From contig CM049310.1 in the NCBI GenBank assembly GCA_026874595.1, forward strand, positions 5,456,001-5,520,000: 64,000 bases of DNA. The letters are read 5' to 3'. The stretch is from Sipunculus nudus (taxonomy: Eukaryota; Annelida; Sipuncula; Golfingiida; Sipunculidae). The stretch's first letter is position 1, and each line of letters starts with the position of its first letter. Positions 9,896 through 58,142 of this stretch are shown here, one piece after another. The translations under genes were made by a program, and so were the position numbers. Under the pieces are notes generated by a model. That model had not been told where the DNA came from and made no database searches. It saw nothing but the letters and a program-made list of their open reading frames with translations.

Positions 9896-10549
9896 CAGCG
9901 AATCTTTGCAATGAAGTCTGTCAGAGATATATGTGCAGTGACGAATCTCCGTGGGTATTTATCTACCATTTTATAGTCCAACCTATATTTTTTATATTCA
10001 ACAACCTCTTTTCTGTGAGTGATGCATATACATACTTGAAAATGCAAGACGGACAAAGGTCCATACTAACATTTTTCTTAGCTTGTGTCCAGGTTGTCAG
10101 TTTATAGCTCCTATATCTATGAACTGAGATCAAGACCACCAAAAGCACATGGAAAATAAATCACTTCCTACCTGTAGGCGAAATTTGCCTTAATGCCATA
10201 CAGTAAATCGGCTGCCGCAGTGGTTCCTTTGAATGGAGTTTTCTTTTGTTTCCTGTAAGCGTCGTGGCAGAATTTCACTTACAAAAGGGGTTGAAGGATT
10301 TCATGGGCTACGTAAAAAGCTACAGTGTTTGTCACACACTGACACAATGACATACATTCCCTCTGGCTTACTACTAGTATATCTAAGTGAATAGTCTAAT
10401 TGGCAAGTTGCCATAAATAGCTCTGAGAGCCTACGACAAGTGTAAGTAAACATCACATGAAAGAAATACGCAGTGTGTAAATAAATAAAGACCGAGTGAT
10501 TACAAAGTTCACAAAATAATGGATGACATGTATTGGAACTTTAACACTA

Positions 10550-10800
10550 CACTGTAAAAAGTAAAGGTTTCTATAAAGGTTTCCTAGAGGTTCCTGTCTT
10601 GTCGCTGTGATGGAACCCTTTTCAGGTTTCCACCGAAACCCTTTTAAAGGGTTTTCACCAAAACCCTTGGAACAGGTTCATATGGAAACCATTTTAGGTT
10701 TACACAGAAACCATTTTTGGAAGACTCAACAAAACCCACATAGGTTTTTGGTAAAACCACTTAAGGTTCCTATAGAAACCTGTCCTAATGTTAAGGAATA
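10550..10800 (+). repeat. Left TIR and subterminal repeat region of the 21 kb transposon
   Basis: The TIR is about 30 bp (CACTGTAAAAAGTAAAGG followed by TTTCTATAAAGG). It is followed by about 200 bp in which GGTTTC, GGTTCC and their complements GAAACC and AAACCC occur more than a dozen times in both orientations. Such arrays are where TnpA-type proteins bind in plant CACTA elements; that role here is inferred. Confidence 0.7.
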
Positions 10801-10959
10801 TTTGCCTGCAAAATTATTTTGAAATATTGTCATTCAAAAGATCATTCACACATGAACACTGCAAACATCAGTGGGTCTTTTGCAACAGATTTATTTTAAA
10901 AAAATACAAATAAAAATATAGTAGGCAGTCTGCCAAATCTATAAATAGAATGCAGCTAC

Positions 10960-11160
10960 TGCACTGAGTGAACTCTTGACCTATACCTGGCAGCACTTGA
11001 GTGAACTCTAGACCTATACCTGGCTGCACTTGAGTGAATTCTTGACTTGTTGCCTAATCTGATACAGTTGCCAGTCTGCCAAAGCTATAAATAGATCCAG
11101 GCTGACCTTTGGCCTGTTGCAAAATCTGAAATAGTTGGCAGTCTGTCAAGCTATTAAACC
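10960..11160. repeat. Dispersed repeat, also at 54090-54260
   Basis: Shares with 54090-54260 the phrases 'ggcagtctgccaaagctat', 'aaatagatccag' and 'ttgcaaaatctga' in the same order. It is an interspersed family of unknown type, here just inside the left end of the large transposon. Confidence 0.6.
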
Positions 11161-11898
11161 TAAAATCTAGTGGCATGATGTTACAGATGCTAATCAACTG
11201 GTGCCAGGCATGATGTAACTGCTTCACACAGCTAACATATACAGTAAAACGGCTCAATTCATGGTTTAGCCAAAAATTATTCATGTGGAACCATTACAAA
11301 CAAATATTATATTATTCTTGTAAAATATTAAACAAATTGGCTTCAGTGGCGTCAGGCGAAAACGTTTTGCAGGTTTATCACTCATATAGGAAGATACAGC
11401 AAACTGTAAGTTCAGCTTCCCGTAACTCGGCCAAAAGTCACTAAACAGAGACAATATGAACAAACTTCAGAGAGCACTACCCTAGAATCATTTCTGTGCA
11501 ATATTAAACAATTTGGTTATATGGTTTTAGAGAAGAAGTTCTTTGTAGCCCTTTGTACGATACAGGCACTGATGACCTCCATACAAAAAAGGCTGATGCA
11601 GGTGGTGCCACCTCAATTTCTGATATGACTCAGGTGACCAACATTGGCATAAAATTTGGTGATGATTAATCAATTTGGCTGGACCAATCCGGAAGAGAAG
11701 ATATTTAAAGGTTTTTAGCTTTTTCACTATAAAATCTAAGAAAATGTAGTTAGCCAAAAAATAAGCAAAATCGGATAGAGTTTTTCAGATGGGTAATTTT
11801 TAGCATAAAATTTTGTGATGCTAGCGTCTGTCGATTTCGACGCCACACCATTGCATTAGCTCAGGTTCGCTAAAAAAGAAATTACGGAACTGGAAAAG

Positions 11899-14800
11899 TT
11901 AAACAAAAAGTCTGGCTGTCCAACTTTTAATGCTGGCAGGGCAGTCTTTGGTGCATTCAACCACTGCAAAGTCCAAAAATGCCATGGTCTTCTTAATCCC
12001 CTTTGGGTACTTTAAACCAAATGACCAGTATGACGCATACCATGCCTCAATGGCCAATTCAAAACTTTTGCACGGTGCTGTCAATATTTGATGTCCCTCG
12101 ATCCTGATGTTGAACATATGAGTATTTTCCGAGGCTTCTTCGACTATAACCGGGGTTGGTGATTTCACTTTCTGGAACCAATGAAGTAAACATATATCTA
12201 TAAGTAATTATATAAGATTTATAAAGATTATTAGCTGAGCGAGGACTTTTATGATATATGACAAAGAACCAAAACTATTTGAACAAACTAGAGACAGAAC
12301 TACCTTAGGATCAGTTCTGTTAAATATTGAATAATTTGGCTGGTCGGTTTCAGAGTAGATTTTTCAAGATTATTAGCTAAGAGAGCAAACAAGGGACCCA
12401 TTGGTCAGTGCTCAGCTGAAGCTGACCTTGAAGGTTAAAATCTAAAATAATATCAAATGGAGATAAAGTGTGAGGGGAAGAGGTAATATAGGCCATGGTT
12501 GGTTTATATGATTGGCTTGTATTGATGAGCAAGAAATTGTTGCAAATAATATTTTGACCTGACCATGTGTTTCCTAATGTTGAAACTGAAGCTTGTGAGC
12601 AGTTTGTGAACAAATGATACTATTTCCATGATCATTAGTTGGCTTTTTGATTAACTGTTGACAGTTCAGTAGTTTACACATTTGTTCAGTTGAATCTATT
12701 TTCTAAATATATATTATTAAATATAAGTATATTTTTTATTTTATGAAATGTTTACATTTGAAATATAACTAATGTCCCAAGTCCATAGATGAAAGGACTT
12801 TGTGGTGGTGGGTTTGGGGGGGGGGGGGGGGGGGGTGGCGAAATTATAGGAATCACAATGTATATGCATCATTATAGTGTTTATATATAGGATTTTCACT
12901 AAATTCAACAATGCTTTCTGGATAAAAAATTAATTCACAATTACTAAATATTTCAAAAAGGACAAACAAACTGGTAAACAAACAAAGCTGAAAATATATG
13001 ATGTTTCAATTATTTCTTACTTTTTTTATTATATCAATTTTTTTTAAAGTTTAATATCTGCAATAATACACAACTGAATATATAAGTTGCTCTCAAATTT
13101 CAGACTTAAATAGCTTAATTCCATACACATACAGCATATGAAAGTTATTTCAACAGTGTTTAAAGGAAAAATGTCATAATTATTATATATTTAATGATAA
13201 CGGAGAGATGATGGACAGACAGAGGTGATCACTTTTTGTCCCATTCTTCTAAGACAAGAATATGTTTCAATTAGATCTTAATTTTTTCTAATCCAATTAT
13301 TTTTTTAATTAAATCATTTTTACACATTTGCAATAAAAACTAATATCCCAGTGCACAGGTGCACAGGAGTCAATGGCGGGGGGGGGGGGGGGGGGGGGGG
13401 GGGGACTAAGCCTGATCTCCAATTCTGCAGGAAAATAATGAACTATACTATACATTTCCAATATAACATATATATCTGAATATAAATGTTGATTCATAAT
13501 TCTAAATTGTATCATTATAAATCTTAATCTTGTCAGATAACTCCACATCATGCATAGAAATGTTTATATATAGTTATTACCCAAAAATTATATCTTTAAA
13601 ATTTGCAAAACAAAAAATATATAAAAATAATACTTTATTCAGATTTCACAATTTTAAATTGTGCCTTTATCTATCCATAATTTGCTTCATATTTATAACT
13701 GATGCATACTGATGGGTTAAATTATATTTGTTAAAATCATTTAAAAGAAAACTGATTTATTTAAAAATGCTACATTGACATAACATGGTATCTTCTGGAT
13801 TACACCTTGAATTACTTTTTCAAGGAAAGTTTGTATATTTGAGTGGAAACAGCATTACAATTAAGGAGATACAGTGAAAACAAAAACAATCGCAAAACAC
13901 TTGGTGGGTTGGGTTTGCGTGGGGATTGGGTGGTGATATGAGAATTTTATTTTTATGCGAATAACTTAAAACATTTACAAAATTCAGATCTAATTTTGGG
14001 TATACAATTGAATCTTTATTAAACAAAGTTATATACTTGAGGGAAAAATTTTTCATATGCGAGTAAAAAATTGTTCTGATTTTTTACAAAGTCCATTATG
14101 TTCAGGCCATTACTTCCAAAAATTACACTTAATGGACTTAATTTCTGGCATGTATATAGGAATTATATCAGAGATTACTTCTAGTGAAAATTAAGAGAAA
14201 CAGATTAGTGGTTTTGATATTAGGCAGTCCTGAAGTGTGATAACAGGTAGCTAATGGAATTTGAGGTTTTTCCTTCATATCTATAAGGAAGAAGTCATAT
14301 CGATCCAGTTTTCGGTATGCTAGGACATTTTGGAGACATCTAACTGTATGCCAAATTTTGGATTTGTAGGTCTTTTGGTCCCAAAACGTGGCAGTCTAAC
14401 GGACAGATGGACGATGGACCACGACTATAGCTCAGATGACTTATAGTCAGCTGAGCTAAAATTCAATGAAATTGAAATATTTGAAAAAACGAGAGAGCAC
14501 TACCTAAAGATTATTATTTTTTAAATATTCAGCAATTAAACCTAACAGATTCAGAGATTTTAAATGTCAATGCCTAAAAAAGGCTAATATTACATCTAAA
14601 TTTGACAGAAAAAAAAAGTAGATCACAGATGAAAGAAATAACTTTCAAAACTGCTATCTGGACCCCTCACATTTCCATATTATAATAGTGATAGTAGGAG
14701 CTGAGGTAATATATACCTCTTCTGAATCCACAATCACATAATACTCTGATTCTCCGAAGACTGATGGTAACAGCTTATATGTAAATTGAAGTCTAGCATC

Positions 14801-15391
14801 TGTAAATACACAAGAGGCCACATTTAAAACAAATCAAATACATTGTTTACAAAATAAACACAACAAATGCACTTGCAAGTAAAGTTATCCATTCTATTTT
14901 CTTTTTATAATTTGCTTTATTAACAATGATATACATTTATGTCAGAGCCTGTACATACAAAAAATGTGCTGTTACAATTCTTAACAAATCTAAGATTCAC
15001 CATTTCACAAGTAAATATAAAAGGCACCAATAAGATATGAGATGGTATGCTTATCTTATTAAGTTCACTGTCAGAGTGAAATGAAAAAGGAGGGGGACAC
15101 CCCTTCGAAAACAAAGAAACTATGGGTCACAATGCTCAGCTGAGGAGATCGATTAGGGTAAAGAATGAAAGCCTTGAAAATGGAAATTTCAGAAGTTGGA
15201 TATTTTTTATAGACAATAGTCTTTTGGTAATTTACCATGCTTCTGAAAATTTGCAGTGCTAATTTTGTTTGGCAATAACTGAAATGTTGAACTCAAAAGT
15301 AGTTGGACACTGCACCACTGTAACCATATATGCCAGCATGATCAATAGTTCCTAACTTTTGTTAACTTGTTTACTTTAAGTAGTTGTAATA

Positions 15392-15442
<51 letters not shown>

Positions 15443-18400
15443 GAGAACAAGAAAAACCTACAACCTAGTCTACTTAAACATCTATTTACAGCTTTAGAAG
15501 AACCTAAGAGCATGAAGCAATCTAATGACACACAGATGGATTCATTTTTTTTATAGTTGAATCCTTGTACTGTTCCAAAATCATCTAACTCCAAAGTAGT
15601 AACACACCTAAAGACAACTTTCCTTAGAATAATACAAGATTAAAAGATATCTAGTTTTCTGAGATTAAGACAATAAAGAGATCAGCATCAAAAGAAATAG
15701 TATGTTGTATGTTATATGATTTTCATTTCTTAAATTTTTAAGAGTTTGGTTTGTAATACATCCATGTAAGGCCCAAAAAAAAGGTGAGGTTCTTGGGCAT
15801 TTTTTTCTCAGAAACCAATGAAGCCTGGCAATATTTTATTTTACCTTTTTTTGTATGTTTCGATAAAAATGTCATATGATCAGGGAAAACATGAAAATAA
15901 TAGAACTGTTTTGCTTAACAGACAAAAGCACTACATAACAAAGGAACTCTCATTAAAATTGTATTTTTTTATCTTCTTGAAGATGAAAATAAAATTTAAA
16001 AATTTTTTATGCGGGGTGGGGGACAAATTTGATGCAGGTGGTGCCTGAGGACCATACCTTTTATTTATTTTGGCTTAATACATAAGAGATAACAGATCAC
16101 ATTAGAATTGCATGCCTGTAAATTCAAAAGATAATCAAAAGATTGCACACCTTGAAGTAACATATAAAAAGTATATACTCTTATTGAATAAAATAGCTGA
16201 AAACTGAATGAACTTTACTGCTCATAACTTAACCTATATGATTTTAACAGCTGTGCTGGTCTCTCAGGTAAAAGACAATTTAGTTAATGTTGATAAATTT
16301 GTTAGACTAGCTTGTTTTCCTATTATTATTCTGTTATGTCTGATTCAAGGCTTAATGTCTTCAGATGTTACCATAATGCTATCAAATTTCACAATTTACA
16401 AGCTTAAACCCAAATAAAGTTTTTCATATACAGAGTGAAAAGAATAAAGCTCAAGTGGTTACAAGATGAGACATCCATGATATGTTACTATAGGATTTAA
16501 TAACCTTTTACTGTTCAGATTACTGAGGTCTGATTTAGTTTAATGAAAAACTTCAGAACTTAAAATTAACACACAATCTGTTTGACCACAGAAATCTAGC
16601 TAAGTAAGGGGGTCTAAATGCCCATTTAGAGTGGCTTTTAGTGCACCTGTGAACAGTAGAGGGTTAATTAAATGAAAGGTTTTTCACTTAACATCTCACA
16701 GGAATTATGTCAGAGTGACTTAGTTTCAGGTCTGGTAGATATGATATGGATCAGCATGTATGTTGATATTCAAATTTTTTAAATTTTAGGAATCAAAACA
16801 TGTTTAATGGAAAGATAGATGGACAGACAGACATCATAACCCAGGCCACTGCCAGAGTTCAGTTGACTTAGAGTCAGTGGAGCTAATGAATTCCCAAATG
16901 GGAGTTCCCTGTCCTTAACCTTCCAACAAGCCCTTATATTACTATAAACCTTTGTTAACATCTTTTCAAAAGAGCCATTGCTGGATGATACAAAGGACCC
17001 AAGTGTCTCAAAGCTCATCCAGAAGAAAAACATTTTTCTTCAACAGATGCAAGAGATCATCTGTAAGAATACATAATTTTAGTAATATTGTTATAATATG
17101 TATACAATAAATGCAACAATTTACCCTGCTGGACTTTTTCTTCAATATTCTCCTCTATGATTTGCTCAAGCTGATGTTTGTACACATTGTACAACTTGCA
17201 TCTGTATCTTGCTCGTGACTCTATGTTTGGTAAAGCCTTCAGTAGTTTCGCCATCTTTCCTCGGACCTTGAAACTGTGTTGCATGTATGTCTCCCCAATA
17301 AGCTAAAATGCAGAAATGAGTGAAATAAAAAAAAATTCAATTAGTGACAGATGACCGACAATAACCCATTGCTATAGCTAAGCATAACAGATAGTCAGCT
17401 GAGCTAAAAATCAGAAAGAAAAGAAAGGACCTTTGGGTCACCAAGCTCTGCTGAAGTTGTATATATAAAGTTCTTAACTACTGTTACCTGCAGTATTTAT
17501 TGTCAGCTGAGTTATAAATATATATATTATATACATGATGACAGAATAGGAAATCCTATAAACTGTTCTACTTTAAAATTCTATTTACTGTTTTAAGTTG
17601 TCAAAATTATAGCAAATTTTAGGACACAGTACTATTTTACTATGTGTGGCACAATGTAAAGTAATCATTACAACTTCTTTATAAATTTAAACTTACCATT
17701 TTAGAAAATATATCCAATTGCAAATTCATGGGATAAGAGATACTGGATTATGAATGCTTTCATACAAAAAACAAATTAAGTTTCATGATTCCTTTTAAAA
17801 TCATGTAGGTATAACTAGTACTGGTGTTGTTTGCATTGAGGGATGTGTTATACCAATAATTTCACTGTTTCGCATATTTTTGTTGGTATAGGCTGTTAAA
17901 TCATGGCTTGAGATAATATTAAATACAAAATAAAGTCACATTCCTTGGAACTTTTAAACAAATATATTAAAATATATAAATATCATTAGTTTTTTTTCCA
18001 TCCAATGACAGCTCAGGTTTGACTGAAAAAAAGGTGCAAAATATACATATTTATGACAAAATAATGCTATCTATATAATCAGTGCATAAATATCAGCCAC
18101 TGAAACTAATAAAAGTAAGTTCCATCATCTATGACTGAAAATAGCCAAAAGTAATTTCAGGTCTGTAGCCTGAACGGTTTAAATTTGTGCCATATAAGGC
18201 TGTTAACAGACTTCCAGATCAATGGACAGACATAGCTAAGAAGACTTACAGTCAGCTGAGCTACAAAATACCAAAATAGAAAACTTTATGTATGCATTTT
18301 AAAAAAAGATGCACACTGTGGCTACACACTGTACATTGTCCTTTTCCTTTACACTGTTTGTAGTTAGCCGCTTGTTTTTACGTAGTGTACATCAGTTTCT

Positions 18401-20652
18401 GTAACATTATATGTGATAAAAAGAAATTTAATACAAAAGGTGGCATCATTTTCATGTGAATATATAAGAATACAGAGTGGGGTACTTACATATGGCCTTA
18501 ATCGCAGAACAGGGAACTCCTCAAGGACCTCAGATATAGTATGGCCACTATATACCAATTTTTTCCGGTAGCTTTTCGTTTTTTCCATTTTTTCATTAAT
18601 AATCTGGACATCCATGTTTTGCTTTTTGGCCTCCTTCTGTAAAGTTTCCATGTGTTTTCGAATTGATATCTCATCTTCTGCTACTTCTTCTACATTGATT
18701 TCATCAGTGACCTAAGTGTAAGACATGACAAATAAATAAAAACAAGTGAACTATAGGTCATGACACTCAGCTGATGAGCACAACCTGCCAGTGTCATAAT
18801 ATTGAAATTTAATATTTTTTACAATTGATTAGACTAATTTTGCTCAAATAGATAGACAGCTTGGATATATGTCATTATTTGTGCCTAGTTAAACAGCTGG
18901 GCAGAAAATGGCAAAAGATCATTTACTACGGCAGAATGACTGAAAATCAGCTGAACTAAATTGATATAGGGGCACCACACATCAAATAAAATGATTGCTA
19001 TTAATTCAATAAATCTTCTGCAGACAATTTAACATTAATTTGGCTGAATTCATACTCATTTAATTCCCCTTCCCAAAAGGAATTAATTTCAATGATATGA
19101 AAGCATAAGTGTCAACATTGTTTCACATCTGTAGGAAAAAAGTAAAACCAACATGAAAACAAACATTCCTGGATTTTCCAAGATACTTCCCTGATAAATT
19201 TTCAGAATTCCAGGATAATTATTTTGACTTTAATCCACATTAAAAATAACCCATAGTGGATCATCAGGTGGACACGCCTTTCTGACATGAAACAAAAACT
19301 AACAGATTGCAACTTTCTCCTCTCTGGTTCAATAAAATTCCCTGTCTTTTCCCTGATTTGAGGCCGAGTTCTAAAACTCCCAGAGTTTCCCTGACTGCAA
19401 AGTGGGAAAATAATTTCCCAGTTTTCCCTGTTCTCCAGGCTGACTGGGAAACCTGACTTGGGTTTCTTTAACAGATAGATTGTGCTCTTTTTATGAATGT
19501 CCAAAACATTGTAAGGTCAGGCCTCACAGACAAAGGTTCAGCACTTCAGCTCAAATGACTTACTCACCTGAGCTGAAAAACAATAAACTATTAATTTCAT
19601 GGGTCTGTAACCAGCATATTTTAAGGATAATCTTCCAGATTCCACTCTTTATATGTAGCTGTAATTTACTTTGATATGCAATAAGCCCAGGAAGCATGCA
19701 GCTTTAAAGCTCACCTCCAGCTGTTGCCGCTTCTCCAATCTTTGTTCATCAGTTTCTTCTGTTGAAGCTCTTTTCCTGCCTGACACTCCTGGCCGTCCGT
19801 ATTTTTTTCGCATCTGGAGCACAGCACCCTCATTTGTCAGTGGCTGCCTCTCCTTCTTGAACTTTCTCCTTAATGCCTCTCTCCAAACAGACTAAAAAAT
19901 ATACAAAAAAATAATAATTGTTTTTATATATATATAAAATGTCATAACATTTAAGCAGCCCAGCTGAAAGATCACAGATGGAACACTGGCACAATGCTTG
20001 AAAATCAGATCCAATCATCCAAGACAGTCAAATAATGCATAAGGATAAGTCAAATTTATTAATACTCATCTGACTGGATAACAAGAATGACTTACTAGGT
20101 AAAGTAACCACATTGATTGCTGATTTGTAGAAAATATTACAGAAATACTTGGCAAGTTTTTGGCAAGATACTACTTGCCCAGTGAGCAGTTTTTTCAAGC
20201 CCCATGGAAGTCTACAGCAAGAGCTTTAAGAACATTTCTTTTAAGGAAGAACCACTGAATGTATGATTGTTTTTTACTCTTCAGGCAATGAAACACTGAA
20301 CCATAAAACTTCTGTTATATTGTTCGAATTAAATATTATACACAACAGTTTGTGTATAGGAACTTACTATGTCACCAGGTAACCAATTGTACTTCATTAG
20401 TAAAGTTGAGCACACATTCCCATAGCCACGTCTGCTTGGAAACCTGAATTTATTAAATGCACGATAAATTATTTACAGAACATATGTACACTATTAAATT
20501 AACAAAAGAATGATCCATGTGAGTCAATTATAAAAGAAGGGACCCTTGGTTCATGGAGCTCTGCTGAATTTGAGTCTTAATTTTATAAATGTTATCAAAA
20601 AGGACAAAATCACAGTTTTCGGTCTTGCTTGCCTAAGTTGGTTCAAAGACTG

Positions 20653-20720
<68 letters not shown>

Positions 20721-23700
20721 ACTATATCAGATAAATGTTTCAATGATAAAATATAAAGTGCTGAGTTTAAACTTCTTTTAATCAGAAATAAACAATAATA
20801 TAATATTTGTTAAAAAAAATAAATAAAAAATTTTTTATGAAAAACTTATTTTTCTTAGATAAGTGGGCAAGTCAGCTAAATAACATGAAAAAGTATTATT
20901 GCTTATAACTAAATTTCTAATATACAATCAAAGCATAACAAAATCTGTTATTGTCATTTATAATATTATTAATTAATAATTTAAGTAACAATTAACACAT
21001 GATATAGCTGGCAATAACATGGGGGGGGGGGGGGACCTGCTTTCTCGGCTTTCTGGATTAATCTTCTAGGTTTCTCAGATTGATCTAACGAGTCTTAGTT
21101 TTCTTTTGTCAATCCCTATAATGACCTGCAAGGTATATCCCTGCCACTGAAATGATTTATAAGATGCTTTACTAGATGATAATACAACAGCTGTGTTCTA
21201 TTTCTATACACATATTCACATATTCAAATATGATTTTAATATAAACCACATGAACTTATCTATTTTCACATTGCAAATTATCTTTGACTGGAAAACAAAG
21301 ACAAAAGAAAGAGATCTCTCAGTGGAAAACAATAAATTCAAATTTTACTATCAGCTTTCCTTACTATAACCACTTATACCAGTCATAGCTTTGGTAGTAG
21401 ATCATATGTACCTCTAAGAGCATTCTAGCTTAGGTCTAGCATTAAAAGCATAGGTCCATTGGTTATCATTTATGCCAGTCTAACGGATGGACCAACAGCC
21501 AGACAGATGTCCCATGTTTGGTCATTGCTATAGGTCAGCTGAATTTAGTCAATTGAGCTTAGAATAAATTAATACAAAAAACATATAATGCACTTATCCT
21601 GAAGTCATGAAAATGAAAATTAAGGCAATAACAAATGATCCAGTTATTTTACATTTTTCATATGCAGTGCAGAAGTTAGCTAAAGCCTAGAATACAGGTA
21701 GTCAACAAGTGACTACGTGTATCCGCTGAAATCAGAGTGGAACGGGTGAAGTGAGGCATGGATTGAGTGGCATGGGGAAATAGAGTGAGGTTTGTTGCAT
21801 ATTAGCATGGATGTCTGCAGCTGAAATGTGTATGTAGGTTGCGCCACCTACCACAAAATCTAGAAAACTGTCAATGTTGTATACATATGCAAAAAGTCAA
21901 ACCACTGCCGAGATATGAGTGATTTTATCCCATGGCAGACAAACAGACGGACGCTGTGCAAAAATGGTTGCAGGTGGCCCCACCAGTTTTGCCTATGATA
22001 AAGAGCTATGTGAGATCTATACACATGCATTTTTTTTTACCAATCATTCAAAAGGTTCCCGAGTTATCCAGTCCTGAGATATAAGCTTGGATGTCTGCAG
22101 CGTAAACGTGAATGTAGGTGGCCTCACCTGTCATAAAAACAAGAAAACTATCCAGGATGTATACACATGCAAATTTTCAGGTGGATAAGTCCAACCATTG
22201 CAGAGACATGAGTGATTTTATCCCAAGGCAGATGAACAGATGGACCCTGTGCAAAAATGGTTGCAGGTGGCGCCACCATTAATTATGTATGTTATAAAGC
22301 TATCCAAGGGCTACAATTTTGCAAATTCTTTTTCCTGATCAGTCAAATAGTTCCCGAGATATGTGTCAAAACAGATGCACAGATGGACACAGAGTGCAGA
22401 GGAAAGGTCAGAGGTCAAGACAAAATTGGGGCGCAGCAGTTCACATGTGACCCTAAGATAATCCCAGGTTTCGTAAAAATTCTGCCCAGCGTTTACGGAG
22501 GAGTTCTCCGGACACCTACACGGCGGCCTCGGTGGTGAGCTGAAAACATTGTATCCGCAAAACTCTGTTTTGGCGGATACAATTACATATGCTGAACAAA
22601 AACTGATTTAAATAAGTGATGGAAGAATTTCTTGGACTTTGATAAATTTTAAATTCACCTCCTCTAGGGAAGTCACATGCATTTTAGTTTTTCTATCAAA
22701 ACATTTATACTACTGAAGCAGTTGTTCAGAATATACTTGCAATTTTATAAATTGGCACATAAGTAAAATGTATTCACATACCATACATTTTTCACAACAA
22801 TGCTGTCAAACAGCATATTAATCAGCATCCCTTTAAGATTTCTGCCTGGCAAAAACTCTTTCTCTCTCTTTTCCAACAAAGCTTGCTGAAGTACTGGAGG
22901 AAATTTCGGTAGGCAGTAATCCTGCAGATCTGCAGCACAAGCACTTGTGGCTCCTTCAAGCTGACCTGGCGACTGCACTTCTTCAGGAGTTGCAGGCTCG
23001 CCTTCACTTTGGGCTTCAAGTTTCTTTTTCGCTTGGTTGAACATAACCCTAAGCTTCAGTTGGGAAAAGCTCAGCCACCATGTTATCATTCAGGCCAAGT
23101 AACGTTTGCCCATCAATTTCTTCATCTGTATAAAAAAAAAAACACACAAACCAGGCTTCTATATGGGAGTTTGTGTTTTAATATTACTGAAATCATCTAA
23201 TAAGTTAATTTTGTGAATCATTCAATGTCAAAACAACATCCATTATTTGTTACAAAATTTTGACAAGAAATAATAAAAACTAGAATACGGGTAGTCTTGT
23301 TGACTGTGTATTCGCCAAAATCAGAGTGCTAGCTGTTGACAGATTTTAGACAGATAAACCAACCACTGCTGAGATATGAGTGATTTTATCCTAGAGCAGA
23401 CAAACAGAAGAAAGATGTAAAAAAAATGGTTGCATGTGGCGCCACCAATTTGGTGTATGATAAAGAGCTATGTGAAATCTATACACATGCAAAATTTCAG
23501 GTGGATAAGTCAAACCACTGCAGAGACCAGTGATTCTAACCCAAGGCAGATGGACAGATGGACACTTGGCAAAAATGGTTGCAAATGGGCCACCATTTTT
23601 GTGTATGCTGTTAAGTTATGCTACATTTGTGCAAATATTTTAGTCTGATTAGTCAAACGAGTCCAGTCCACAGATATGTGTTAATGTGTCAGAACTGACA

Positions 23701-26608
23701 CACAGAAGGACGCACTACAGAGAGGAAAATTCAGAGGTCAACGCAAAATATTTTTGCACCATGTACCAGTGATAAATCTGTTCAGTGGTATCAGAGTTCT
23801 ATTCTGGAAACAAAAGCAGCGGCAGGGGAACCTTGTAAAAAACATTGTATCCACAAAACTTTGTTTTAGCAGATAAAATTATATAAATTACATGTTCAAG
23901 GAGGATATCTTGTAAACATGCATATAATACAGTACCTTCTCACCTGGTACACCCCATCTAATTAAAGTTTAAGTGAGTGGGTAATTTGCATCCTTAAAAC
24001 ATGATGTAACCTTATAAATTGGAAATGCAAAGGCCTGATCCCCAACAGTATAGAAACGGTGTTGACGAGTGTCAAGAAGTTTGTTTGGCTCAACTGCATA
24101 CCACTCAGTGTCTGCTTCTACCTGATAGCAATGCAAGTAATATATGTATCTTTTGCTAAGGTAACATCTACCACACAAGAACCACCTGCCTCTCATATTC
24201 ACAATATATTTAATAATTAAAAAAATAGGAATTTGTTCCTCTTCATGGACATCAAGGACATAGCATCCAGACACTTTAAAGGGAGCTCCATCAAGTGTTA
24301 CTGAATGAACAACCTCTACCTCTTCTTTGGTTAGCATTTCCCCATCATATTTGCTGTTCAAAGTTGTTACAAGGGGGGCAGGTAATGTCTGCAACTGAAT
24401 ATGTCTGGACTTTGACTGTAAGGTAACAGGGGCCGGATAGAAGAATTTACCAGCAAGCTCACATGCTTGTCTCATTTGGTGCCTCTCAGACAGCGTGTAT
24501 GTAATATTTTTAAATGTACGCAAAGATGAGGATACCCTTTTGAAATACTGATGTTTTGCCTCAAACCGCATTGTCCAAAAGTTTCTAAGAGGCCCAAACC
24601 TTAGCATGAGTTGTGGATAGTGTACCAAAAAGTGGTGCTTTGGGGTGAAGGAATCCTCCCCAAAAACCTCCTTAAATTTATACAAGTACCCCTCTATAGC
24701 CACCTGTATATAGGGAATCGCTCTTTGTTCTACAACCGGACTGAAAACATAATCCATGCATTCTCTTAGGCACAGGTAAACGTCCCATTCTGGTTCATTT
24801 TCCACTCCAAATGAACCTATAATCTGAGGGAGGTTGAGAAAGATTTCCCACTTCTGAGCTGCTGTTCCAACAAGTTTGTTTTTCCCTTTCAGAGCTACCT
24901 CTTTTATTTCATTAGGTTTGTCTTTGGCTGGGATTTTAAGCTGCCTCAGGGAAACATTTAATTCATCAAAGGTAAATTTCTTCTTTTCATAGAGGCGCTT
25001 TAGAACCAATGTTACAGTGGCAGGTATAACCCCCTCCAGACAATCATGCATGATGTCTGGTGGAAACGAATCAGGAACACTGAAGTAATCTAAATGGCTC
25101 AGAGCACATTTGTGTTTTATTCCATATATCTTGCTATTGTCTGGGTTAGAAAGAACAGCTTCAAGCTGGTACCTGTATACTTGGTTGTCTCGAAGAACAA
25201 ACTCCTTTTCACTAAATGCCTGGCTAATTTGGCTATAGTCAGCTGTGCAAAAGCGACAAAAACGTCCTGCATTGAAATGGGTTTGAAACCCAGCAAGACT
25301 ATTAGATGACAGATTATCTCCACAAATGGTTGCCAGTCTTGCCCTTATAGTTCTCTCTTTGCCATTCACCATGACATTTACTCCATTTTCAAGAGTTTTT
25401 AAATCTGACAACAGTGGCTGCATGACTTTGTCGTAATCAGGATCATGCTGTTTTACATGAACATGTCTAACCAGCAAACACAAATTAATGGAATGCTGCA
25501 AGCTTCTATAAATTGGAGGCAAACTACCAACTACAAAGTAAACTGCAGTTATTTTGTATTTACCTCTTTTTGCACCTATCGGGTTGCATAATTCAAATTC
25601 GTCCATGTAAAAATGAAGTGGAATGACCTTTGAGTTGAGAAAAGAATTTTCCCTCCAGGCTTTCCCATCAAAATAATCAAACAATGTGTTTGGGTTGTGA
25701 ATTCTTTGGGGTTCCAAAATGGCTTGTTGTGCATCTGAATTGTTTAAAATAGATTTTAATACATCAGTGAGTGGTACATAATGAAAGACAGTAGTTTGGA
25801 TGGAAGGGCATAGTGAATATGCCTGCGGTTTAACTACTGAATAACTGCGTCTGATGTAGTTATTGAATTTGTATTTTGTTGTGAGGCTTTCCCATACATT
25901 CAGATCAACAAACTGGGTATTAAGTAGGTCATGTAATTCTTTGTTCTCATTGAAATTCACTTCTACATGGTTTAACGCCTGTTTTATCAATTTTTGAAGT
26001 ACATCATTGGTGAAAGTTATAAGGAATCTAATTTCCTCCACTAAACTCACCTGTACAGTACCAGTGAGCAAGTGCTTTTCTCTCAACTTAAGCATGAAAG
26101 ATGCAAAATGTGTCAAAAAATCAGCCTGGAAGGACTCTCGAGTTGTAGAGTCTGAATCTTGATCATCACTGATTTGTTCCCCATCCTCATCTGAACAATA
26201 AAATTCATTATCTGAATCACTGAAACTGGTATTGGATGTGTCATGATAGTTGGTATTTTGAAGCCTGGTTTGGTGTTTTCTGTAATAATGCCGTTTATAA
26301 GCAGACACATTTTTGAAAGAATTTTGACAATTTCCAATCCCACATATTATAAAGTGGGCTTCACTTTCATGAAACAAATGCAAGTGCTGACAGTATTTTA
26401 AGAATGAAAATTTAAAGATATCACAGTATGGACACTTGAATTTTTCAAGTGGCATTGCTTTCCCAATTGAGCAACATAAGGGTCAGTTCCCCTGAAATTA
26501 AAACAACATACCTTGAAATTTTTTAGAGTACTCCCCAATCCCATTCTCTTCAAGCCAAACACCTACTGTCTCTGTGGTCCAGGTTGTGATATTACTATAA
26601 GTGTTCAT
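11899..26608 (-). CDS. SAM-domain multi-exon gene (TnpA-like second gene of the transposon), with lesions
   Basis: Minus-strand exons: 26608-26512, 23125-22782, 20443-20368, 19891-19715, 18711-18490, 17302-17125, 14799-14717, 12171-11899. Every junction agrees in phase except inside exon 2. Exons 1-2 encode a SAM domain (WTTETVGVWLEENGIGEY, then EIDGQTLLGLND). The rest contains YCLPKFPP, VWREALRRKFKKER, a Lys-rich segment, QHSFKVRGKMAKLL and a C-terminal domain starting SPTPVIVEEA. The layout resembles the many 'SAM domain-containing 3-like' proteins predicted in fish and invertebrates. Exon 2 has one extra base in TTTTCCCAACTG (about 23065) that shifts the frame within the SAM domain; the last SAM helix and all downstream exons agree in the shifted frame. 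A further possible exon (about 17060-16890) has an in-frame stop, and skipping it keeps the frame. The mended length would be about 480 aa. DNA or protein binding is an inference. Confidence 0.7.
13378..13404 (+). repeat. Poly-G tract, 27 nt
   Basis: The longest G run in the window; another of 20 G lies at 12816-12835. Both are inside the large transposon. Confidence 0.95.
14428..14458 (+). repeat. TAGCTCAG..CTGAGCTA hairpin terminus of a dispersed repeat
   Basis: Near-perfect 13 bp stem (TAGCTCAGATGAC / GTCAGCTGAGCTA) with loop TTATA, followed by AA and preceded by a 'ggacagatggacgatggac' tract. The same structure recurs at 30432-30462 and 50542-50572. Confidence 0.7.
15391..15442 (+). repeat. 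(AT)n then (AG)n microsatellite
   Basis: About 20 bases of alternating AT followed directly by GA repeats with a few AAAG interruptions. Confidence 0.9.
15770..16075 (+). mobile_element. PIF/Harbinger-like MITE, copy 1
   Basis: 306 bp, starting GGCCCAAAA and ending TTTGGCT, flanked by TAA (15767-15769 and 16076-16078). Inner TIR sequence around 'aggttcttgggca' pairs with 'tgcctgaggaccatacc'. It is the inverted relative of 31714-32007. TAA duplications and GGCC ends fit PIF/Harbinger MITEs. It sits in an intron of the SAM gene. Confidence 0.75.
20656..20713 (+). repeat. (AT)n microsatellite
   Basis: Uninterrupted TA dinucleotide repeat of about 58 bases. Confidence 0.95.
21687..22582 (+). 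mobile_element. GGTGGCGCCACC-type non-autonomous element, copy 1
   Basis: Begins 'ctagaatacaggtagtc' and ends in the hairpin TATCCGCAAAAC-TCT-GTTTTGGCGGATA followed by CAAT, like the copies at 23280 and 51378. The interior holds diverged units with 'gatgtctgcag', 'gttgcaggtgg' and 'gagatatgagtgatttta'. No coding capacity. Copies sharing both ends define its limits. Confidence 0.75.
23280..23880 (+). mobile_element. GGTGGCGCCACC-type non-autonomous element, copy 2 (diverged)
   Basis: Starts 'ctagaatacgggtagtc' and ends in a decayed version of the same hairpin ('tatccacaaaactttgttttagcagata'). It is shorter and more diverged than the other copies. It lies in intron 1 of the SAM gene, immediately beyond the stop of the transposase ORF at 23969. 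Confidence 0.7.
23969..26455 (-). CDS. C2H2 + DDE transposase, CACTA/EnSpm-like (828 aa)
   Basis: A single uninterrupted ORF, unusual in this window. Two C2H2 fingers open the protein (C8-C11-H24-H29 and C38-C43-H56-H61), followed by an acidic stretch. A long RNase H-like region then carries candidate catalytic residues: D285 in FYMDEFELCNP, D380 in CGDNLSSN and possibly E632 in MRFEAKHQYFKR. Also seen are a CRFC pair near 400-403 and PPDIMHDCLEGV at 465-476, a motif like the Asp/His blocks of CACTA-type transposases. It lies wholly in intron 1 of the same-strand SAM gene and starts 57 bp after SAM exon 1. An acceptor-like TTTTAATTTCAG just upstream of its ATG could join it to a distant leader exon. 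The intact frame suggests recent activity or selection. Superfamily assignment is from motifs and termini only; a related KDZ/Plavaka-type family is the alternative. Confidence 0.8.
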   Translation of the reverse strand: MPLEKFKCPYCDIFKFSFLKYCQHLHLFHESEAHFIICGIGNCQNSFKNVSAYKRHYYRKHQTRLQNTNYHDTSNTSFSDSDNEFYCSDEDGEQISDDQDSDSTTRESFQADFLTHFASFMLKLREKHLLTGTVQVSLVEEIRFLITFTNDVLQKLIKQALNHVEVNFNENKELHDLLNTQFVDLNVWESLTTKYKFNNYIRRSYSVVKPQAYSLCPSIQTTVFHYVPLTDVLKSILNNSDAQQAILEPQRIHNPNTLFDYFDGKAWRENSFLNSKVIPLHFYMDEFELCNPIGAKRGKYKITAVYFVVGSLPPIYRSLQHSINLCLLVRHVHVKQHDPDYDKVMQPLLSDLKTLENGVNVMVNGKERTIRARLATICGDNLSSNSLAGFQTHFNAGRFCRFCTADYSQISQAFSEKEFVLRDNQVYRYQLEAVLSNPDNSKIYGIKHKCALSHLDYFSVPDSFPPDIMHDCLEGVIPATVTLVLKRLYEKKKFTFDELNVSLRQLKIPAKDKPNEIKEVALKGKNKLVGTAAQKWEIFLNLPQIIGSFGVENEPEWDVYLCLRECMDYVFSPVVEQRAIPYIQVAIEGYLYKFKEVFGEDSFTPKHHFLVHYPQLMLRFGPLRNFWTMRFEAKHQYFKRVSSSLRTFKNITYTLSERHQMRQACELAGKFFYPAPVTLQSKSRHIQLQTLPAPLVTTLNSKYDGEMLTKEEVEVVHSVTLDGAPFKVSGCYVLDVHEEEQIPIFLIIKYIVNMRGRWFLCGRCYLSKRYIYYLHCYQVEADTEWYAVEPNKLLDTRQHRFYTVGDQAFAFPIYKVTSCFKDANYPLT

Positions 26609-26984
26609 GGCTCCTTATCTTTCCTATAAATCAAAATTAAATAAGACACATTCATGTACAAGAATTCTCAGCATCACAAAATAAATATCATGACACTGTG
26701 GAGTGAACATTTGGTGACACCATGGGATGTCAAATGTTGTACATACTTTTTTTTAAGTTCATTTTTAAAAGTACACCAGTAACAATAACATGAAAATGAA
26801 AATAAAAGAATGAATATGTCATTTATATGAATATCAAACAAACAGCACAACTTGCAAAGCATTTGGGCCAGTAAATATAACAAAATAAACTTACTAAAGA
26901 AGTAGTCATGTCACATGATTTAGAAGTGTAAAAATAAAAGTGAATGTTACGGCCCTTAGGCCCCTTTTCCATGCGCGCATTTCT

Positions 26985-27522
26985 CGCGCTGAAAAAATCG
27001 CTTTGAATCGCTTTACCAATCGCGCGTTTCCGCTGAATCACCCCTACATGTGACGTGTTTTCACAAGGGTTTCCGCGTCCCCAAGACTTTCAGGCAACAT
27101 GTTGAGCATGTGACTGTTATGTACAGTTCACTTTATTCATGTAAACATTTAAAATTTCGTTTTATTTTTGCAAGAATGAACAGTTTTATCACGGTATAGT
27201 GTGCTATCTACAGGCCGATAGGGGTGGTATATAGGCTACAGGCTTAAGAGATTATTCACTATCCGTAATAAGATATTTCACACCCCCGCAGCACATATAT
27301 TTATATGTTTATATAAAATATATATAATCATGCATTAAAGTAGACAAGCAGAACAGCAGTTAAGTATGATTTGTCACCATGCATGATATAGGCCTATGCA
27401 TGGGCATCCTCAAGCAGACTGCATTCTCGTTCTTGACCTCCACAAGAAAGCTGGCCCGCGTGCCTTCCCGCGTGCATGGAAGAGGGATACATGATTTACA
27501 CTTGAGCGATTTTTTCAGCGCG
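26985..27522. repeat. Inverted repeat, 18 bp perfect arms 500 bp apart
   Basis: CGCGCTGAAAAAATCGCT at 26985-27002 and its exact complement at 27505-27522. The surroundings are GC-rich ('atgcgcgcatttctcgcgct' and 'gcccgcgtgccttcccgcgtgcatgga') within AT-rich DNA. This may be a nested MITE; flanking duplications were not identified. Confidence 0.6.
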
Positions 27523-30430
27523 CGGAAACCATGATAAATGGGTATAAATGTATTAATAGTTAACCCCTCACAAGTATAAAGTCAAGACTTTAAAGGTGTT
27601 TGTTAAGTGTATTTAATACACATATCTTTCCAACACTACCCCAGACACATAAATATAAATCTCCCTTCTTTTCTGGTCAAAGTAACACAAACTGCATTTC
27701 TAGGTTAATAATCATGACAACTGCAGCACAACCTGTTACAGGTGGGACAGAAAAAATATTTTATTTTGACCTAGACATCATAATAGGTACAAAATCCAAG
27801 TTACTTCTTAATGTAAACTCTCTACGGTACCCTTTTGAAATTATTCAGCAGCATATATGTAGCTGATTATTAATGTCTGCATGGTCATAAAATTAACGGG
27901 TTTAACTGTGGACATGTCGCAGCTGGGACAAAATGGCCTATAATTTGCTGTGGATAGAAACATCTTTTCTCTTACTCTAGGAATTGATGGATGTTACTGT
28001 CTGCATCATCCGTGTTATTCTTAATAAGTAACTGCCTTACAAACAACCTGATTTTTCTTTCTATAACCTCAGACAATATCATGTACAGATTTAGAGCAAT
28101 TGGCCAAATAATGACCTTAATTCAAGTATGTACATTGGAGCGTTATAGGGGAATATTGGATTCGTAGGTCTAAAGGTTTCAAAATGTGCTGTCTAACAGA
28201 TTTACAGACGGACGGACAGACAGACAGAAAAGACAGACAGGCAATGGGAGAAGGGGGTGAAGTGCTACCAATGGTATGGTTTGCATCCTTAGCATAGTTT
28301 ACCGGCTAAGGCAGGGTGAAAACCTTGCCATAGGCTAATTAATTAGGGGAGAGGGCTTGTAAGCCAGCCCGCAGCTAATTAATTAATGACAGGCTGGGGC
28401 AGTACTGGGGTAATGTTTGTACAGTGGTGGCACAGGGTACTTCACAATTTAGCAAAAGCATTTAAGTAAATATGTTGCATCCTATAAATCCTAATCTTAC
28501 AAAGGGTTTTTAATCAATGCTAAATGGGCAGTGTCCCTGATCGGTTGATGAACATTCATAATGCATATAAATTACATTTGCATATAGTCAGTTACAAAAC
28601 CCTTGTCGGCATGTTTTTTAGTAGACTGGCCCAGTCAATGAAATGGCTCTTAATTGTTGCCTCTGACAAAGAAACCAAACGTTCTCTCACTGTATCGCAC
28701 GTATAGTGTCGGTATCGCAATCTCTTGGTTACTTCTATAACTAATTACCACTCGCTGACCCTCTTATTTCATCGACTGGTAAACTTGGGCCGTACCGGAC
28801 AGTCAGCGCCATACATCACCGCCTCGCTGAACTAAGGTCTTTCACAGTGAAGTGCAGAGTAATTATAGTGGTCTTTCCCAGAATCTTTTTTTTTTAAACC
28901 AACATGGGTTATCCAGTAACCGCCTATTGTGGGCTTCTAGCTTGCTATTTATATACCCATTTAATCAGTCTTAATATTTTAAGGTCCTCGGCTATTTTGA
29001 GTACGGCAAGACTTTTTAACACTATAATATAACCCTCAGCCTCAGTGAGTCAGAGTGTCACCGTTTATCAGACCATCGCTTTCCAAGGCAGGTCGGTTTG
29101 AAAATGTATCTCTAGCTCAGCCAATCAGCGCGAGATATTCAGGTTCACATGCGACAAACGCATTCATGTACCGGCTGGCTGAAACAATCAGCGTGTTGGC
29201 AACTTAACAGGGGCAGGGCTTTCAAGCTTGAACACTAACAAATACACCGCACAAAACAGATGTGACAGTGTCTACAATGCACTTTCATCTGGCCCATGGA
29301 CCGTAGTGTTGGACAGCAGAGATATATCATAGGACACGAAGGTCCATGTACAGACTTTCTGTAAACATGATTTCAGTGCGAATGTTACAAGTGGGTTGAG
29401 CTGTCTATTGCCATTTTGACCGCTGCTAGCGTCCACATAGCAACGATGCCATTCACAGGAGGCGTGGCAGCCTGAAATGCTAATGTGAGGGAATCGTCAG
29501 GAGCCTTGTGTCGCCTTAATATTTAAATATCAGGGATTAACCATACAGACTTTACAGGGCTTTAGTGATAAGAGCTGGTACTGAGTTACGACTATTGGCA
29601 CATGGAAAAACGTTTTATTTTAAGCATTTTAGTAGTAAACGTAAATACACTATAGCCCAGGCAGGGCTAGTTTTTTAGTGATAATTATTTTAAGAATATT
29701 CTTTAAATAGGAACAGCTGAATATATAGCTCCAGCAACCTTTGGACAAGAAAGGTTTACACTGCTTTACTTGTATAAAAAATTATCCCGGAAATACATGC
29801 AGACACAGGTACTTGGACGGACTATAAATAATAATTATTTCATAAAGGTTTTGGATAGATTTATCATATGTAAATAATATTCAATGTATGAACTCTAATT
29901 ATCTGGCATATATCAGGGGCGGAATTTAGAGGGGAGGGGCTCAGGGGGTGCGCGGCCCCCTTTTTTTCGACCTTACCATAAAAACCTGGGAAAACTCAAA
30001 GTACACCAAGTGTTTAGAACAGTAACAATGTATGTTTTGTTTATAATGCATTTAAGCGACCTCAGGGTGCACGATTACAACCTTAATTTTTAAAAAATGT
30101 GTACACCTGGGCCATTACAACCCCCCCCCCCCCAAATTCTAAATTCCTTTATCTAACCCTGAATATAAAAATTTCATTTTAATAAAATATATAGGAATAA
30201 ATAATATTAAATCATTCAGGGGCAGGAGAAAGTGTATAAAAAAATTAATAATGTAGTGGATACTGGAAGGGAATCTAAAATGTTTTTAATTTTAAATATT
30301 TTTAGTCTGTAATGATACAATAATCCCTGACATTTGGTTTTATAAATAAACAGATAAATAATTAATGGGCAAAAGTGCCAATACCATTAGTCATTACATA
30401 ACATAACAATGGACCATATGAAGGCAAACT
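27523..30430. other. Long 5' intron/leader region of the transposon, no ORF recognised
   Basis: No coding sequence was recognised. It contains a 'gacggacggacagacagacag' tract (28208-28240), AATTAATTA palindromes near 28340-28385 and a poly-C run at 30121-30133. If the leader exon near 30711 is real, this is the intron between it and the SAM/transposase exons. Confidence 0.4.
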
Positions 30431-30431
30431 A

Positions 30432-30462
30432 TAGCTCAGTTGACTTATAGTCAGCTGAGCTA
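30432..30462 (+). repeat. TAGCTCAG..CTGAGCTA hairpin terminus, second copy
   Basis: TAGCTCAGTTGAC / GTCAGCTGAGCTA around loop TTATA; same family as at 14428 and 50542. Confidence 0.7.
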
Positions 30463-30710
30463 AAAAGAAATATACGAGGAGTTTTAACCCGCCGAGTCAC
30501 TGAAAACAAGAAGTTTCACCAGGACCGTTTGAGATAATCAAGGATGTTTCAAGGACAATGACACAGGCTGAACACATTTGACGGGGCCATCTTCAGAGTT
30601 CAAGTTTCGCCTATTTAGTTCTCTGATTTTGTGCTGTGGGATAGGCAATTGACAATGGGTGTATTCAAAAATAGTAATAGGGGCATTATTATCATTTTAA
30701 TACAACATAC

Positions 30711-30840
30711 CTGTGCCATCGGTGTGAAGAATTCCTCGCTTTTTGCTTCATGTGTCGTAAAAAGGACGCTGCTTCTCTGTCATGTGACGCTACACGTGAT
30801 CGCGTGACGTCAACACTGGGTGCGGTTACTATATTTAGAC
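30711..30840 (-). promoter_or_regulatory. Candidate promoter and leader exon of the transposon genes
   Basis: On the minus strand a good donor, CACAG|GTATGTTG, marks an exon end at 30711. Upstream of it are a palindromic CRE-like TGACGTCA (30805-30812), an E-box CACGTG (30793-30798) and a TATA-like CTAAATATAG (about 30828-30838). The site lies 0.7 kb inside the right end of the transposon, where the promoter of a CACTA element is expected. The exon could be spliced to the SAM exon or to the transposase ORF. No transcript evidence is available. Confidence 0.4.
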
Positions 30841-30965
30841 GCGGGACCTCGTTAATGCTTCATGGTCTGAACTACAGATGGCGCTCCGTTTGGACCTTGA
30901 AATCGTGCACGCAAAGATATTTTTTACAAAAGCCATTGTGAAATTAATGTCACTGTATTTTGCTG

Positions 30966-30969
<4 letters not shown>

Positions 30970-31032
<63 letters not shown>
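30970..31032 (+). repeat. (AT)n microsatellite
   Basis: About 63 bases of uninterrupted AT repeat. Confidence 0.95.
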
Positions 31033-31035
<3 letters not shown>

Positions 31036-31285
31036 CAGCATTTTACCGTTAATTCGTACCATTTACCACTGTAATAAATACTATTAGCTGATTTCTAAAA
31101 CTGTGACTTAAGTAAATTTATTTGTTCAGTCTATTCAAGCTTTATAAAATTTATCTCATTAGTGTTAATTTAGTAATAATGTATTATCACAAATTTCACT
31201 GAATTTGATGAAAATTTGTATATAAACTGGATATTACAATGATCGATTGGTCTTAATTCTGATATATTCTAGGTTTATATTTAGA

Positions 31286-31286
<1 letters not shown>

Positions 31287-31347
<61 letters not shown>
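31287..31347 (+). repeat. (AT)n microsatellite next to the right subterminal region
   Basis: About 61 bases of AT repeat directly abutting the motif-rich end of the 21 kb transposon. Confidence 0.95.
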
Positions 31348-31348
<1 letters not shown>

Positions 31349-31349
<1 letters not shown>

Positions 31350-31499
31350 CGTGAAAAAGGTTTTCTCGAAAACCCTTTGCGATAGAAACCTTTTGTAAAA
31401 GGGTTCCTTGACCATATAGGTTCCTGTTGTTACAAGAAACCCTTTTCCGTAACCAAAACCATTTCAAAACCTTTAAGAAACCCTTTATTTTTTACAGTG
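31349..31499 (-). repeat. Right TIR and subterminal repeat region of the 21 kb transposon
   Basis: It ends in TTTTTTACAGTG, the inverse of the left terminus. It contains the same AAACCCTTT, AAAACC and GGTTCC motifs as the left end, interrupted on the inner side by an (AT)n tract at 31287-31347. Confidence 0.7.
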
Positions 31500-31713
31500 T
31501 ACATGGGGGGGGGGGGGGGCATCGAATCCTAAACTCTCCCCTTCCAAACACATCCCTCGGCCGATACATGGCCTGGACAGTGATGCTTCCCTCAAGATAC
31601 TTGCACCTCCCTCTTCCGAACTGAATTTTAGTTGCACCTCTTGTAAAAATTATTTTTTGATTATATGAAACTCTACATAAATATGATGTAAAATATATAT
31701 GTTGTACTAGTAA

Positions 31714-55390: not shown

Positions 55391-56460
55391 ACTGTCCATG
55401 ATAAATAAGCTAAGCAAAAACATTTCATTCCGAGCTACTGGAGGATTTTTATCATTTTTCAATTATTCTGGATTGCTAATGAGCTTCATGTACAGCTCGG
55501 AGGGTATAAGTCGCAGTGACCTGATTTCTGGTTTCTAAGTAGATTTTTATTGGCCTCCTTAGAAGATTCTGGGCCAATCACTTACGATTTGTGCCGTGCT
55601 AAGGGACGTCCGGAAGAACTATTATCGCTATAGCTCAGCACGTTCGAAAGTCATCTGAGTGTATAATACATATTTGTTATTTATAAAGAATTGTAATTTA
55701 AAATTGACTGAATAAATACAGGCAAGGTGCAATTTTTGTTTTATCACCTTGTTTTATTTAGTTAATTTTATTTAAGTCGAATTTCACTTTTATTGGTATC
55801 TGATGACATGAATTTTCCTTTACATTATATGAGAAGCACACCTTTGTTACGAATATGCGTGTGTGAGTGTTTATTTTGTCAATTTTATTGTCCGAGATAT
55901 GTGCCAAATTATATGAATCATGCGCGCGCATTTGTCAATCCCAATCTCGTGCAGCGAGCAGCCGTAGCAGCATGATTGACCCCTCAAGCCTACATGTACA
56001 AGTTGCTGTCACATGACCAGGACTTCGGAGTGAGGGTGACACGTGGCTATCTAAAACATGGCTTGTACATACTGGCCATTTCAAAGTTAAACCTTTTTGT
56101 ACGTAGTGTTTTTTTAAACATGCACTCTCAGTTCTGACGTTAGTGACCATTACCCCTCCAGTTAAAATAAAACCAACCAGTTTTGAATGGGTATTGTAGT
56201 CATCCCCCCCCCCCCCCCCCGACAACCGAACCATACAAAACAAAACACATCCTCAACCCGGGGACACAATGTCAAGGGACGAACGCCCTGGTGTTAAAGA
56301 CGAAACGCGTTGACTCCCATTGACACCCTATGACTCTCTTTGATACCGGCCCTATAGTATTACCATAAACCTTCAACAGCCAGATTAAATTAAAACTATA
56401 ATTATCTATAGTTAACAACAAAGTTACAGCATGGAGGTTTAAAACAGTCATTGGTAACAA

Positions 56461-57900: not shown

Positions 57901-58142
57901 CACAACATCTTGGTACATTACGCTCACGATATCGGCCCCTGTTATATATGAGAAAGTTATAGAGAATTTTAAGTAAAACATGAAATAGTGGAAATACAGA
58001 CGTATGCGTTGTTGGTGAAGCGATCTACATGATGACAAGGTAATATCACTTGACCTTACTTGTGTCTTCTATTGACAATAAAAGCAACAAAAACAGGCTC
58101 CGTCGCCCGCAGACCAGCCATAATAAGATGAGAATAATTATA

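Follow-up and report, generated by a model that had tools for sequence, protein, structure and literature searches.

We report that a 64,000-nucleotide stretch of Sipunculus nudus DNA (GenBank assembly GCA_026874595.1, contig CM049310.1, positions 5,456,001 to 5,520,000 of the forward strand; designated as the window) contains, at window positions 10550-31499, what is almost certainly a complete CACTA/EnSpm-group DNA transposon of the cut-and-paste type, about 21 kb in length. A second gene, here called the SAM gene, very probably holds the entire transposase open reading frame (ORF) of this element in its first coding intron, so that the SAM domain encoded by the SAM gene is split. Sequence, splice phase and relatives all show this nested layout. 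The best overall explanation, a CACTA/EnSpm element with nested genes, alternative splicing and a SAM protein resembling TNPA of maize, has in our estimate a probability of about 0.8.

An initial annotation of the window had claimed inverted CACTG termini at 10550 and 31499 with TA on both outer sides, and this was borne out. The motif CACTGTAAAAANTAAAGG occurs in exact form once per strand in the window, at 10550 on the plus strand and at 31482-31499 on the minus strand, and reading of the flanks showed TA directly outside the left and right ends. Self-alignment of the two ends, which the annotation had proposed as a check, extends over 34 columns and contains a single mismatch and two gaps of 1 nt. 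The CACTG-ended terminal inverted repeats occupy 10550-10582 (left, plus strand, on the 3′ side of the genes) and 31467-31499 (right, minus strand, on the 5′ side of the genes), and both are identical in two other full copies of the element. All three full copies have CA..TG terminal inverted repeats of the form CACTG...CAGTG. The left and right copies of the TA target-site duplication lie at 10548-10549 and 31500-31501, the 2-bp duplication being proven at another copy through an empty site.

The ends also carry subterminal repeats. A scan of the window for dyads of the form GGTT[TC]N(2-10)[AG]AACC found nine, seven of which are 16 bp in length (GGTT[TC]N6[AG]AACC), and all seven lie in the element ends. 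The left subterminal region (10566-10780) contains six, at 10625, 10650, 10675, 10697, 10743 and 10765, with starts spaced 25, 25, 22, 46 and 22 bp apart, and the right region (31359-31482) contains one, at 31359. AAACC/GGTTT half-sites number 17 in 276 bp at the left end and nine in 152 bp at the right end, the densest clusters in the window; elsewhere the background is 4.1 per kb and windows of the same lengths peak at seven (276 bp) and four (152 bp). The element ends are therefore asymmetric in subterminal repeats, with six dyads against one and 17 half-sites against nine. Asymmetric ends have been described for plant CACTA elements in the available portion of PMC2613891.

A search of the host genome (1.427 Gb, 153 contigs) with the ends, also proposed in the initial annotation, showed that the paired ends recur around about 21 kb at two other places, which substantiates the claim of a complete CACTG-ended element. 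Both copies have the exact end pair, and BLAST aligned each of them with the whole of the window element: one at C2:79392166-79413156 (20,991 bp, 99.50% identity) and one at C4:69005531-69026472 (20,942 bp, 99.48% identity). Pairwise substitutions among the full copies amount to 0.14-0.19%, and in their three-way alignment there are 53 substitutions and 19 indels, of which many fall in simple repeats. The fourth copy, at C2:66846633-66857705, is an 11,073-bp internal-deletion derivative of about 99% identity, which keeps both ends (the right one being CAGCG) and lacks element bases 10799-20583, so that the transposase and SAM exons 1 and 2 are missing. The left 281 bp had 11 matches in the genome (four near-identical, one at 86% and six partial at 73-85%) and the right 152 bp had eight (four near-identical and four at 70-72%). 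With only four near-identical left ends and four near-identical right ends, the family of the window element is small and young. Single end matches at C1:38265871, C2:20756211, C3:68607484 and C9:17650523 do not belong to the window element. The CACTG inverted repeats and dyad arrays thus enclose near-identical copies at several sites.

All four copies have matching 2-bp flanks, TA in three and CG in one. The deletion derivative is inserted in a repeated reading frame that by eye is like that of a retroelement reverse transcriptase. When its flanks were joined with one CG, 41 matches were obtained, two of which are the derivative's own flanks; 20 run unbroken from query base 1 to 299/300 at 81-98% identity. 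Base-level reading across the joint at three of these sites showed the expected pre-insertion sequence at two (L040 and L041) and one base off at the third (L042). The uninterrupted empty sites, together with the matching flanks of the copies, demonstrate that insertion duplicates 2 bp. The empty-site check suggested in the initial annotation thus succeeded for the deletion derivative, whereas for the window copy a joined-flank search of the genome gave no match spanning the joint.

The annotated 828-codon DDE transposase ORF is present at 23969-26455 on the minus strand, and contains 829 codons in both sister copies. The residues D285, D380, C400xxC403, H608xxxH612 and E632 are invariant in all four aligned transposases (the window transposase and three intact relatives of 27-28% identity); this D-D-E signature with C(2)C and H(3)H is given for EnSpm/CACTA, Mirage, Chapaev and Transib alike in the available portion of PMC12730594. 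The next related Pfam family after Transposase_21 (considered below) was DUF4218 (E = 0.44). By eye, the N-terminal region contains zinc-finger-like Cys/His motifs, zf-Di19 being under its cut-off. A PDB search with the transposase gave no match, and no relative was found in the viral contigs searched. An AlphaFold model from the four-sequence alignment had a mean pLDDT of 46 and was not used.

The second multi-exon gene on the same strand was likewise found, with seven exons and GT-AG borders. All exons lie on the minus strand: exon 1, with the ATG at 26608 and the first half of the SAM domain (26512-26623); exon 2, with the second half (22782-23125); exon 3 (20368-20443); exon 4, with a basic stretch (19715-19891); exon 5 (18490-18711); exon 6 (17125-17302); and exon 7, the C-terminal exon with the stop, in open frame and fitting phase (11899-12197). 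A short alternative last exon at 17008-17060 is likewise phase-compatible. Phases are compatible throughout and give one open 464-amino-acid frame in the C2 and C4 copies, two of the three full copies. Intron 1 (23126-26511) contains the entire transposase ORF. The initial annotation was thus right about both genes of the interior, but they are not side by side. Across the junction of exons 1 and 2, the Pfam family SAM_1 scored 32.7 bits against a cut-off of 23 bits, whereas the exon 1 half alone scored 21.1 bits, below the cut-off, and the exon 2 half alone gave no match. Since the transposase ORF lies in intron 1, the SAM domain is complete only after removal of that intron. A PDB search with the SAM protein gave only weak SAM-domain matches and a chance-level HORMA row. 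An NCBIfam search gave no credible match.

Relatives of the transposase were then considered. A genome search with it, in which 55 of 222 candidates were scored, gave 60 matches, three of them being the full copies. Ten transposase loci were read: that of the window, eight others designated as A, B, C, D, E, F, I and J, and an outside contig, L039. SAM exon 2 follows the transposase in four of the ten (window, B, E and F), with transposase identities down to about 30%, and the first half of the SAM domain precedes the transposase in three of these four (window, E and F). In loci E and F, which represent much-diverged families, the transposase likewise sits in a phase-1 split of the SAM domain, and the joined halves scored 30.1 and 30.5 bits against SAM_1. 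Locus B also has a relative of exon 4 (39% identity, E = 2e-10), and locus E one of exon 5. Locus B yielded neither the N-terminus of the transposase nor a SAM first half and is therefore uninformative on nesting. In L039 no SAM half was found in 2.2 kb upstream, and the contig ends inside the transposase.

Several observations weigh against the explanation given above. The window copy carries a 2-nt deletion near 23059 in SAM exon 2 that breaks the frame, so that the second gene, described initially as recognisable, is open in the two sister copies but frameshifted here. The match of the transposase to Transposase_21 (tnp2) had an E value of 1.3e-5 and, at 24.9 bits, was under the 28.6-bit cut-off. 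The upstream first exon and the promoter were not located. Both E and F have decayed, their transposases containing stops, and exon 1 of E has no ATG. In loci A and C, whose transposases are intact, the second gene lies wholly downstream and has a different N-terminal module; the nesting in coding sequence is therefore not shared by all. Loci D and I had no match to a second-gene profile in the 6.0 and 4.3 kb read, and two loci picked by SAM-gene matches (G and H, which carry relatives of exon 2) had no transposase match in 6.0 and 4.4 kb. Of two profiles of the second-gene core, one, built from the window element and E, gave E = 7.9e-6 for A and a weak match at E = 0.004 for C, while the other found no match in either locus. 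In J the likeness of the core was seen only by eye and as a 20-bit tblastn match. A SAM-bearing clade is therefore marked by the nesting in coding sequence, and a related second gene may be more widespread than the nesting.

By analogy with maize Spm, we propose that one transcript would start from the 31499 side and be spliced in two ways. Removal of intron 1 would yield the SAM protein; retention of intron 1, or joining of an upstream exon to an acceptor at 26492, would yield the transposase. A possible alternative splice acceptor, TTTTAATTTCAG, was read at 26492-26503 on the minus strand, just 5′ of the transposase ATG, and a similar acceptor is present in locus E. Alternative splicing of a single transcript is the moderately favoured version of events. 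The SAM protein would bind the subterminal GGTTT...AAACC dyads, gather the two ends and oligomerise through its SAM domain, and the D-D-E transposase would do the cutting and joining. This dyad-reading role is proposed because of the likeness to Spm, and the odds that the SAM protein does in this element what TNPA does in maize are about even. The basic stretch encoded by exon 4 is only suggestive in this respect.

Three other explanations were weighed. That the ends at 10550 and 31499 are separate short elements lying 21 kb apart by chance gains something from the frequency of the terminal 18-mer: with up to two mismatches, CACTGTAAAAANTAAAGG had 529/523 matches genome-wide compared to 639/565 for a reversed control and is thus not enriched, so the motif by itself is weak proof and the copies decide. 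Against this, the 21 kb recurs between these ends at two more places whose flanks differ, the deletion derivative at a third site retains both ends and has an empty site, and the genes stay within the ends in both other full copies. The outcomes that the initial annotation had named as fatal, ends belonging to separate short elements or genes extending past them, were therefore not seen, and this explanation was rejected as having practically no chance of being correct. Another possibility is that the SAM gene was taken up from the host by a smaller CACTA transposon and would be a passenger without a role in transposition. Captured genes are known in plant CACTA elements, the window copy is full-length despite its broken SAM frame, and related SAM-gene exons occur at C11 and C6 without a nearby transposase match. 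These points are opposed by the recurrence of SAM exon 2 downstream of diverged transposases in four of the ten loci, by the identical phase-1 split in E and F, and by the related core downstream of the transposase in A and, weakly, in C. Such recurrence across diverged relatives is not expected from a recent capture, and this explanation is quite improbable.

A less remote alternative, still unlikely, is that the transposase and the SAM gene each have a promoter and transcripts of their own, in which case the nesting would be only positional and would regulate nothing. In locus F only 14 bases lie between the exon 1 donor and the transposase ATG, with no acceptor between them; splicing to an acceptor is therefore impossible there, and intron retention or a second promoter is needed. 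Two points argue against separate promoters: both the window element and E have an acceptor-like site just ahead of the transposase ATG, and Spm and SmTRC1 are reported to be alternatively spliced in the available portions of PMC2613891 and PMC1636069.

The layout was compared with known systems through the portions of the sources available. In maize Spm/En-1, intron 1 of tnpA supplies the tnpD ORF, neither of the two proteins is dispensable, and the subterminal repeats are recognised by TNPA (PMC2613891); the likeness to our element is one of layout, with two genes, a transposase ORF in intron 1 of its partner and subterminal repeats. Spm differs in its 8.3-kb size, CACTA ends and TNPA, compared to about 21 kb, CACTG ends, a 2-bp duplication and a SAM partner here. 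Soybean Tgmt*, a 20.5-kb plant CACTA element, is similar in size, in having one complex gene that gives the transposase and smaller spliced mRNAs, and in its asymmetric subterminal repeats, but has a 3-bp duplication and 13-bp CACTA repeats (PMC2613891). SmTRC1 of Schistosoma and the animal TRC elements are CACTA relatives with Transposase_21 and a 2-bp duplication, and SmTRC1 is alternatively spliced; they differ in the size of elements in two insects (5.2 and 9.2 kb) and in their CCC-starting ends, and no SAM gene is mentioned in the available portion of PMC1636069. ESTA and fungal EnSpm elements of the CMCT clade share C(2)C and H(3-4)H between the second D and E, CA..TG ends and, for ESTA, TA duplications as in three of the four copies here, but are fungal and carry TET/JBP dioxygenase genes (PMC12730594). 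In open-access titles and the beginnings of abstracts, no SAM gene in CACTA/EnSpm elements and no association of SAMD3 with transposons was reported; a similar Repbase entry may exist. As judged from its sequence, the window element is an animal CACTA-group element that combines an Spm-like nested layout with a SAM-domain partner gene.

Further observations concern the relatives of the two genes. In families A, C and J (L029+L031, L032 and L046), the second gene seems to open with a different small N-terminal module in place of SAM; searched against Pfam, the A and C modules had no match that reached the cut-off. In family D, two frames like the second half of SAM lie upstream of the transposase (L033, 2-208 and 432-626); one was checked and had no Pfam match. 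About 40 of the 91 scored genome matches to the SAM protein begin at residue 367, in the C-terminal exon (most at about 42% identity, with one TAA), and probably represent a high-copy non-autonomous relative retaining that exon. At G000:C11:66480217-66504224 (L037 being its start), five SAM-gene-like exons of 52-63% identity are spread across 24 kb, and neither the genome search nor the 6 kb read revealed a transposase match there; this is either a decayed element or a free-standing gene. A transposase relative (29% identity) at G000:C16:45625798-45627408 lies inside a 2249-amino-acid open frame, far above normal transposase length. A wider genome-contig search gave one match, L039 (QNXQ01000188.1), a 4.5-kb animal-like contig filed under an Aquifex metagenome-assembled genome; it encodes an animal-type CACTA transposase of 30% identity and is presumably misbinned animal DNA.

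Outside the element, the window contains a 279-bp tandem array (TRF) at 51625-52898, which is 72-81% identical to dispersed pieces in the element introns (21799-22363 and 23343-23659); in L037, similar repeats precede the C11 relative. At 42635-43117 on the minus strand, a frame for a lytic polysaccharide mono-oxygenase (LPMO_10, 54.7 bits against a cut-off of 23) is likely a host gene exon. A 33-bp minisatellite of 44 copies at 56453-57904 has one frame open for 347 codons.

The proven ends, near-identical sisters, deletion derivative and empty site provide the material needed for a transposition assay, and the split SAM domain predicts that a single splice choice determines which of the two proteins is made, the transposase or its partner. 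Inheritance of the Spm-like layout, or its origin on two occasions, would suggest that CACTA transposition generally uses two proteins from one locus. More tentatively, and rather doubtfully, an ancestral accessory gene of animal CACTA elements, consisting of a SAM or other N-terminal module and a conserved core, may do the work of TNPA, one clade having coupled it to the transposase by placing the latter in an intron that interrupts the SAM domain. Vertebrate SAMD3-like proteins, which we assume to combine a SAM domain with a similar-looking core, are a lead only; if the ancestral accessory gene is real, free-standing animal SAMD3-like genes would have arisen from it by domestication.

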